A stretch of 64,000 nucleotides of DNA. Source: Allochromatium vinosum DSM 180. Its GTDB lineage: Bacteria; Pseudomonadota; Gammaproteobacteria; Chromatiales; Chromatiaceae. The position numbers and the translations under genes are program-made. Below, piece after piece: positions 10,154 to 15,356 of the stretch (position 1 is its first letter; every line of letters starts with the position of its first letter). A model generated the notes under the pieces. That model saw only the letters and a list, made by a program, of their open reading frames with translations. It was not told where the DNA came from and ran no database searches. The stretch covers positions 549,001 through 613,000 of the forward strand of contig NC_013851.1 of the NCBI RefSeq assembly GCF_000025485.1, in the 5' to 3' direction.

Positions 10154-13342
<3,189 letters not shown>

Positions 13343-13370: not shown

Positions 13371-14477
13371 TCAGTGGATGTGATCGTCAGCGAGTGGATA
13401 ACGCCCCCAGCGCGCGACGGCCTGGGAGATGGTCGTCAGGACCGCGTCCGGCACCTGCCAGGGAATTTCGCCGTGGTTGTCGGCGAGGATGAAACCGCCA
13501 CCGTGCCCGGCGGCCCGGATGGCGTCCCTGACGGCGGATTCGGCCTGCTCCGGCGTCCAGTGACGCATGGCGATGCCGTTGAGGTTGCCCAGCAGCGACA
13601 GTCGCCCCTGGGCGGCGTGTTTCAGCGCGCCGAGATCCTCGTGCGAACTCACGCCGATCACGGCCGCGCCCGTGTCGAGCAGATCCGGCACGCGCGGCAG
13701 GATGCGCCCCGAGGCGAAGTGCATGGCGGCCGGCGCCTTGATCTGGGCGAGGGTGCGACGGGCGATCTCGCGTCCGGTGGCCAGAAAGAACTCGCGCGTG
13801 GTGATGGTCGTCGACGAGACCGGATCGAAATAACAGATGGCGTTCGCGCCGGCCTCGACCTGGGCATTGGCCCAGTCGACGCAGAAACGTTCGTTGAGCT
13901 GCATCAGGCGCTCGAACAGATCGGGCCGCTCGTGCATCAGGATCAGATAGCGCTCGAATCCGAGCTGCATTACCGGCAGCGAGAAGGGCGACATCACCAC
14001 GCCGATGATGGGCACTTCGCCGCGCGCCTGCTCGGCCATCAGGCGCGTGGCCGTGAGCACGCGCTGTAGGCTGGGTGAATCCTCGATGCGCGGTACGCTC
14101 AGGCGCCGGATGTCCTCGGGATCGCGCACGATCGGGGCGCCGGCGTTGGGCGGGCCATCGGCGCGAAACAGCGTGCTGCCGCCCCAGGCTTCGATCTCGA
14201 TGGCGGCATAGTGGAAGTTGTAGAGACAGTCGTGGCCGAGCTTGGCGCGCAGACGCCATTGCCCCTCGGCCACCTGCTCGGGACGGGCGAAATACTCCTC
14301 GATCGATAGACCGAGCTCGCGCGCGCCCTGCATGACCGGGAACAGGAAGAGCGGCACCCGGTCCGGCTCACGCTGACCGAGCGCGGTCAGGACGCGCTGC
14401 ATGGAGGTCATGGGGGCGACGGGCTGGTCCGGCGTCGGCGCGGACGGAGGCGGCCCTTCTTGGTTCGGGACCGTCAC
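13371..14477 (-). CDS. Uroporphyrinogen decarboxylase-family protein (MtaA/CmuA-like methyltransferase homologue)
   Basis: This 368-aa TIM-barrel protein belongs to the UroD superfamily, in the branch of methylcobamide:acceptor methyltransferases (MtaA, MtbA, CmuA) rather than haem-pathway HemE. Evidence is the [20 protein letters not shown] start, the internal [11 protein letters not shown]-type motif region and its position next to a corrinoid protein. MtaA-type enzymes bind zinc through HxC and a distant Cys. Here the first motif reads MHFASG (His253 kept, Cys replaced by Ala255) and the second reads ILADNHGE, placing His335 where Cys is expected by my hand alignment. A canonical thiol methyltransferase role is therefore doubtful. 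The GTG start overlaps the corrinoid gene stop by four bases. Confidence 0.82.
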
Positions 14478-15115
14478 GGTTTCACCTCCAGTCGCTCCAG
14501 GATCGCCAGGATGTCGCCTGCGCTCAGCCCCACGGCGTCGGCGCCGACCTCACGCCAGAGCTGGTCGTCGAAACGATAGGGCGCACCGCCCACCACGACC
14601 CGTACATTGGGGGCGACCGCGCGCAGTCGCTCGACCAGTGCCCGCACCCGTAACGCCGCCGGCAGCATCAGCGTCGAGATCAGCAGCACCTCGATGCCGT
14701 CGGAACGCACCAGCTCGACCAGCGTCTCCACGTCCTGGCGCCCGTAGTCGTGCACCTGGTAGCCGGCGGCGCGCAGCACGGTTCGCACGATCTGCTTGCC
14801 GAGCAGGTGATAGTCCTCCAGCACCGCGATGGCCAGTCGCGGCGGGGCGTTCTCGGGGGCCGGCGGATCGTCGGCGAGTACCTCGCCAAGCAGATCCTCC
14901 AGCAGCTCCTCGCAGATCCGCCCGCTCATATAGATCTGGGAGAGCGCGCAGTCGCCGCCTTCCCAGAGCTGGCCGATTTCCTCCAGGGCCGGACGGATCA
15001 GGCGTTCGATGACCTCCAGGGGTGCATGCTCGGCGCGGGCCGCTGCCAGCAGTTCCTGGGCCTGGAGCCGATTGAGCGTCAGCAGGGCTTGTAACAGCGC
15101 GTCCGATGATGACAT
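14474..15115 (-). CDS. Corrinoid (B12)-binding protein, MtaC/MtbC type
   Basis: This 214-aa protein has the two-domain layout of methyltransferase corrinoid proteins. An N-terminal helical cap (LIRPALEEIGQLWEGGDCAL) is followed by a Rossmann-like cobalamin domain with the base-off/His-on motif intact: DYHLLG (His103 is the lower cobalt ligand), STLML for the SxL, and VVGGAPYRF for the GG. Such proteins carry a methyl group between a substrate methyltransferase and an acceptor enzyme. The frame is open further upstream to 15190, but the ATG at 15115 gives the family-like N-terminus. It is the first gene of the operon and is coupled to the UroD-type gene (GTGA overlap). No substrate-specific MtaB/MttB-like partner is present in the window. 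Confidence 0.87.
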   Translation of the reverse strand: MSSSDALLQALLTLNRLQAQELLAAARAEHAPLEVIERLIRPALEEIGQLWEGGDCALSQIYMSGRICEELLEDLLGEVLADDPPAPENAPPRLAIAVLEDYHLLGKQIVRTVLRAAGYQVHDYGRQDVETLVELVRSDGIEVLLISTLMLPAALRVRALVERLRAVAPNVRVVVGGAPYRFDDQLWREVGADAVGLSAGDILAILERLEVKP

Positions 15116-15271
15116 GAGTGATCGACCGCAGTGAGTTGAGCACGGGGGCATCCGATGCCGGATGACCGAGGCTGTTACCACGGACATCATGGGGGGATCG
15201 GGTCGAGGGACGGGTGACTCTACCCAAGCCCAGCGCCGATCAGTATACTGCCTCGACTCACTTCACGCCCT

Positions 15272-15356
15272 GCCCGGGTGGCGAAATTGGTAGACGCAAG
15301 GGACTTAAAATCCCTCGACTTCGGTCATGCCGGTTCGAGCCCGGCCCCGGGCACCA
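15272..15356 (+). tRNA. tRNA-Leu (UAA)
   Basis: An 85-base cloverleaf with seven-base acceptor stem GCCCGGG/CCCGGGC, anticodon stem AGGGA/TCCCT around loop CTTAAAA (anticodon TAA at 15306-15308), a long class II variable arm, a TTCGAGC T-loop and an encoded CCA end. The short D-arm GGTAGACGC and long variable arm are typical of leucine tRNA. It lies between the corrinoid operon, transcribed away, and ubiA. Confidence 0.97.

Follow-up and report, generated by a model that had tools for sequence, protein, structure and literature searches.

A UroD-fold protein without zinc-site cysteines, kept together with a corrinoid protein and a DUF1638-like signalling protein, is probably part of a sensory input module

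The locus and its three genes

The window, a 64,000-nucleotide stretch of the Allochromatium vinosum DSM 180 genome (NC_013851.1, positions 549,001 to 613,000), contains three adjacent genes on its reverse strand, which encode a corrinoid protein, a UroD-fold protein and a hybrid sensor histidine kinase. The cognate corrinoid protein (14474..15190) consists of a B12-binding_2 cap and a B12-binding domain with the motif D126-x-H128-x-x-G131, in which the Asp, His and Gly are each conserved in 100% of 75 sequences. Residue W76 of the cap is followed by Q85, I86 and Y87. The true start of this protein may be Met26 (about 15115). A tRNA-Leu (TAA) gene is located directly upstream of the operon on the opposite strand (15272-15356), ~80 bases from the most upstream candidate start of the corrinoid-protein gene.

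The UroD gene (13371..14477, 368 aa) begins with a GTG codon that is preceded at its 5′ side by a ribosome site (GGAGGTGA), and its start and the stop of the preceding corrinoid-protein gene overlap by 4 bases. The protein matches the Pfam URO-D domain at 182 bits (cut-off 23.9; E 1.9e-53). Its AlphaFold2 model is a confident UroD (TIM) barrel (pLDDT 89.5), for which the best solved match found by VIA-align is MtaA (4ay7; Z 39.5, rmsd 2.3, 330 residues, 20% identity), followed by HemE (Z 36.3). By domain and fold it is a member of the UroD superfamily, as was claimed when it was originally predicted to be a UroD/MtaA homologue. None of the curated NCBIfam cut-offs was reached, with scores of 94.0 bits against TIGR01463 (mtaA_cmuA; cut-off 235.4), 71.5 against the MtaA model (400), 58.8 against the MtbA model (600) and 55.7 against the HemE model (302.95). 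A HemE paralogue was rejected on the basis of this last score, the placement of the protein outside the HemE clade (100/100) and the presence of a separate HemE, which is the only other URO-D protein in the genome.

The downstream gene (10154..13342) encodes a DUF1638-like domain at the N-terminus (12563..13300), a PAS domain, a HisKA and HATPase_c kinase core (aa 534-759; 11066..11743), and REC and Hpt phosphorelay domains (aa 793-896 and 970-1049; 10196..10966). With HisKA, HATPase_c, REC and Hpt all present, it qualifies as a hybrid two-component sensor kinase.

The former zinc sites

In MtaA, MtaA-like proteins and CmuA, the first zinc site reads HxC, and a Cys further downstream completes the set. 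The corresponding stretch of the A. vinosum protein is H253-F254-A255-S256-G257 (His253-Phe254-Ala255 at 13713..13721), while the second region reads L331-A332-D333-N334-H335-G336-E337-I338-P339-W340 (D333 to W340 at 13458..13481), with His335 in place of the MtaA Cys. The phmmer alignment with 4AY7 pairs these regions with HIC and APGCGI, and CmuA has HTC at the first site and GC at the second. A MAFFT alignment with HxC-type UroDs places Ala255 at the first-Cys position, whereas the profile-profile alignment by hhalign places Ser256 there; both have His335 opposite the second Cys. No Cys was found at either zinc position by phmmer against 4AY7, MAFFT or hhalign. The residues named in the original prediction, H-F-A and A-D-N-H with neither Cys present, are therefore correct, and no other Cys takes over either position in these sequence alignments. 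Across the family, cysteines are frequent elsewhere (C84 95%, C199 77%, C215 83%), none of them at the zinc positions. Because both Cys are missing family-wide, methyl transfer by the classical zinc-thiolate route is unlikely, which agrees with what had been proposed from the single sequence.

The loss of the Cys ligands is not in itself new, since UroD methyltransferases without Cys or zinc are known: O-methyltransferases of the UroD superfamily have carboxylate or non-coordinating residues in place of the Cys (PMC10418091), and zinc is not needed by CdmB and MtvB (PMC13222342).

A search of GTDB genomes recovered 184 relatives of the UroD protein, the best 80 of which come from Chromatiaceae, beta- and alphaproteobacteria, sulfate reducers, cable bacteria, Geobacter relatives, Chloroflexota, Nitrospirota, Verrucomicrobiota and one methanogen. 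Column 255 is Ala in 82 and Gly in 2 of 84 relatives, and column 335 is His in 82/84. As DNHGEIPW and KAPAAMHF had been among the words used to retrieve this set, the survey was repeated with profile searches, in which members scored >460 bits and the next best hits, fragments aside, ~213 and below. Members were found in 6/274 gammaproteobacterial genomes and in 19/193 genomes of the class of genome G276, three of which were already known. Wherever the sites could be read, the first was HxA, HxG or HxT and the second D(N/S)HGEIP, and never a Cys. The family forms a single clade (100/100) that excludes HemE and the HxC-type UroDs. Judged by these sequences, the HFA...DNH signature is a fixed feature of a large, discrete UroD family and not a chance occurrence.

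Some loci carry additional copies. Tandem second UroD genes lie beside additional corrinoid-protein genes in L033 (4559-10739), L189-L191, L193 and L197; one duplicate in L048 is without His335 (DN-GEIPW), and a similar duplicate in L079 is interrupted by the contig end.

The invariant polar residues of the UroD concentrate at the mouth of the barrel (Fisher p 0.003), which carries D218, N298, N300, D333, N334, H335 and E337. Such residues could in principle make up a different metal site, built from His253 and His335 with Asp333, Glu337 or Asp218, and still able to activate a thiol or hydroxyl acceptor; the near invariance of His335 and Glu337 and the conservation of His253 (95%) would suit it. 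We regard this as highly improbable, as His253 is replaced by Ser or Leu in 4/84 members and as the metal-independent HemE shares a His at position 335 in the MAFFT alignment.

Conservation of the trio

The exact order of corrinoid protein, UroD and DUF1638 protein on the same strand is found in 70/81 loci, and the exceptions are mostly contig ends or duplications. Neighbour clustering revealed neither a near-universal fourth gene nor a consistent substrate pathway beside the trio. DUF1638 is present in 61/64 third-gene proteins, the outputs of which include HATPase_c (48), HisKA (35), REC (11), Hpt (7) and GGDEF (8). Such swapped outputs behind DUF1638 are as expected for an input domain. Cyclic-di-GMP domains, for example in REC-PAS-GGDEF-EAL and REC-HD proteins, also occur in the downstream same-strand run of 19/75 loci. 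The pairwise distances of the three proteins correlate with r of 0.77-0.81, compared with a permutation maximum of 0.16. A corrinoid protein, a UroD that has no zinc-thiolate site, and a DUF1638-like domain with signalling outputs are thus kept together and co-inherited across phyla. One trio is plasmid-borne (L184, plasmid pAZKH of Azoarcus sp. KH32C) and lies next to genes for formylmethanofuran dehydrogenase and a quinoprotein relay, which may point to a C1 context.

The UroD is the slowest-evolving member of the trio (mean distance 0.37, compared with 0.47 and 0.66 for the other two), and this, together with the enrichment at the barrel mouth, argues that it is not decaying. Since the protein does not reach the curated cut-off of any NCBIfam UroD model that it matches, it might otherwise be taken for a HemE or MtaA paralogue that has decayed and lost its function. 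This explanation is barely credible and was rejected, being contradicted by the slow evolution, by the strict operon conservation and by identities of 56-90% over ~340 residues across phyla among the best 80 of the 184 relatives.

The DUF1638-like domain

The A. vinosum kinase matches DUF1638 (PF07796) only weakly, at 22-26 bits against a Pfam gathering score of 27, while most of its tested relatives score >27. Cys26, Cys55, Cys85 and Cys117 (kinase numbering) are conserved in 73-75 of 76 sequences, and Glu32 is also conserved. Stand-alone DUF1638 proteins keep three of the four Cys and have His at the second position. From this conserved Cys set, the domain likely holds a metal or Fe-S site. 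Its model is Rossmann-like and of high confidence, with no clear solved relative by Foldseek (best E 3e-3) or VIA-align (best Z 7.5). The latter score belongs to heterodisulfide-reductase-associated subunits, tied with unrelated Rossmann-like folds, and the resemblance to Fe-S subunits is for this reason a lead only.

In Phaeobacter, DUF1638 is genetically tied to corrinoid-protein function, and a methionine synthase that depends on a corrinoid requires it along with a RamA-like protein, although no specific role was proposed for DUF1638 (PMC5764234). The split methionine synthase of Phaeobacter inhibens resembles the trio in that DUF1638 adjoins the corrinoid protein and is functionally tied to it. 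It differs in that DUF1638 stands alone and is accompanied by a RamA-like activase (PMC5764234), whereas the DUF1638 of the window is the input domain of a kinase, with no activase.

Sister groups and the RACo activase

The closest UroD clade occurs in operons with the order RACo, corrinoid protein, UroD and stand-alone DUF1638 (L177, L181, L182). These sister trios share with the A. vinosum trio the gene order and a related UroD. They differ in their unfused DUF1638, in the presence of RACo and in their UroD sites, which typically read YYCGM (or YFCAQ) and GTGVMP-like. In two of the three (L177 2674-10719; L181 3763-11966), the operon is followed by a histidine kinase and a REC-PAS-GGDEF-EAL gene; such an operon, which links a corrinoid protein to signalling, is apparently also undescribed. 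A third UroD group linked to DUF1638 (L206-L209; L027 45-1208), most members of which are beside a corrinoid protein, has FHHGG...SGADIP-like sites. The full HxC...C set is therefore missing from all three groups. In genome G284, a TIGR01463-type UroD gene lies ~2 kb from a divergent DUF1638 gene, and we do not claim the missing HxC...C near DUF1638 as a rule.

No RACo-type corrinoid activase (PF14574) was detected in the A. vinosum genome, which therefore does not present the RACo/RamA activase that would mark a RACo-dependent corrinoid methyltransferase. Likewise, none was found in five other near-complete trio-bearing gammaproteobacterial genomes. RACo is absent from 12/26 trio carriers in all (A. 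vinosum and 11/25 others), so that over half have it, and it is present in all three sister-clade genomes tested.

Discussion

The three genes probably encode a sensor of an undescribed kind, and not a metabolic enzyme, because the UroD is without both zinc Cys and is almost always found beside a B12 carrier and a signalling protein. The literature searched contained no description of the trio, nor of DUF1638, UroD and a corrinoid protein so linked to a sensor kinase. Among known systems, the soluble coenzyme M methyltransferases MtaA and MtbA come close, as they include the best structure match and are paired with a corrinoid protein. The A. vinosum UroD differs from them in lacking HxC...C, in its low TIGR01463 score, in belonging to a separate clade and in being linked to a kinase instead of methanogenesis genes.

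A metabolic reading has to be weighed, in which the UroD is an MT1 enzyme that demethylates an O- or halo-methyl compound onto the corrinoid for carbon or methionine metabolism, in the manner of CdmB or an O-demethylase, and the kinase merely regulates this. MT1 enzymes of the superfamily can be without Cys ligands and even without zinc (PMC13222342; PMC10418091), and the adjacent corrinoid protein has its DxHxxG motif intact. The formylmethanofuran dehydrogenase and quinoprotein-associated genes beside the pAZKH copy would also fit. CdmB and MtvB, which share with the trio a zinc-free UroD fold and a corrinoid protein, are set apart by their descriptions: they are accompanied by an MT2, work with an activating enzyme and serve catabolism (PMC13222342), and the window gene has none of these beside it. 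Neither an MT2 nor any other additional gene is conserved beside the trio, the A. vinosum genome is without RACo, and the constant third gene is a kinase or cyclase while substrate-pathway genes are not conserved. We therefore consider the metabolic reading unlikely.

Methyl chemistry on corrinoids is familiar from metabolism, and light sensing by corrinoids is also known. The photoreceptor regulators CarH and AerR resemble the trio in using a corrinoid-binding protein for regulation. It is conceivable that the corrinoid protein reports the oxidation state or photolysis of cobalt, with the UroD as a scaffold or cap and DUF1638, possibly with Fe-S or Zn, as the transducer of a redox, oxygen or light signal. 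The four conserved Cys of the DUF1638-like domain, the many carriers that belong, by their record titles, to anaerobic or microaerophilic groups, and the fact that RACo would not be needed are in keeping with such a sensor. Several observations nevertheless make it quite unlikely. The cap, with W76...Q85, does not have the W-x9-E-H motif of CarH-type photoreceptors, and the extra UroD and DUF1638 partners are a further difference from CarH and AerR. Many carriers come from dark sediments or groundwater, and the light-sensor version is ranked low. The strong conservation at the barrel mouth, which a scaffold would not require, argues against a mere scaffold role for the UroD.

We consider it rather probable that the three genes are a self-contained, corrinoid-linked sensory input module, in which the UroD binds a signal or demethylates it onto the corrinoid and DUF1638 reads the result. 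The ligand of the UroD barrel would be a small signal molecule, probably methylated and not a thiol, which the UroD would present to, or demethylate onto, the corrinoid of the neighbouring protein. The loaded UroD/corrinoid complex, with methylated or redox-changed cobalt, would then dock on the four-Cys DUF1638-like domain and switch the attached kinase, with the signal passing via REC and Hpt to a putative response regulator; in some relatives, the output would be cyclic-di-GMP. On this model the UroD would be a receptor-like or MT1-like partner and not a thiol methyltransferase. A related scheme, which is unlikely, has the methyl transfer itself as the signal: the UroD methylates the corrinoid, and a thiolate or metal centre formed by the four Cys of DUF1638 accepts the methyl group or an electron, thereby switching the kinase or diguanylate cyclase.

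The signalling role of the trio is well supported, whereas the substrate, the chemistry and the direction of methyl transfer are what we infer. The original prediction had suggested a receptor for the methylated corrinoid protein or a methyl transfer to a protein. Both suggestions fit the gene context best, because the UroD gene is fixed between those of the corrinoid protein and the sensor kinase. The three-gene unit, the DUF1638-like domain with four Cys of its own and the lack of an activase are additions to that prediction. Some points speak against the sensory module. Co-inheritance alone yields a distance correlation without physical contact, and the kinase could report on another pathway, with the UroD and corrinoid protein being metabolic. 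In addition, RACo is encoded in more than half of the trio-bearing genomes tested, and the neighbouring genes point to no consistent substrate.

The trio is best called a new combination of known parts, joining those of corrinoid methyltransferases with two-component and c-di-GMP signalling, and there is a chance that it represents a new sensing principle. If it is a sensor, the trio would add a new type of sensory input, in organisms that include methanotrophs, sulfate reducers and cable bacteria. It would also offer a role for DUF1638 and explain why the UroD has lost its zinc-thiolate ligands.
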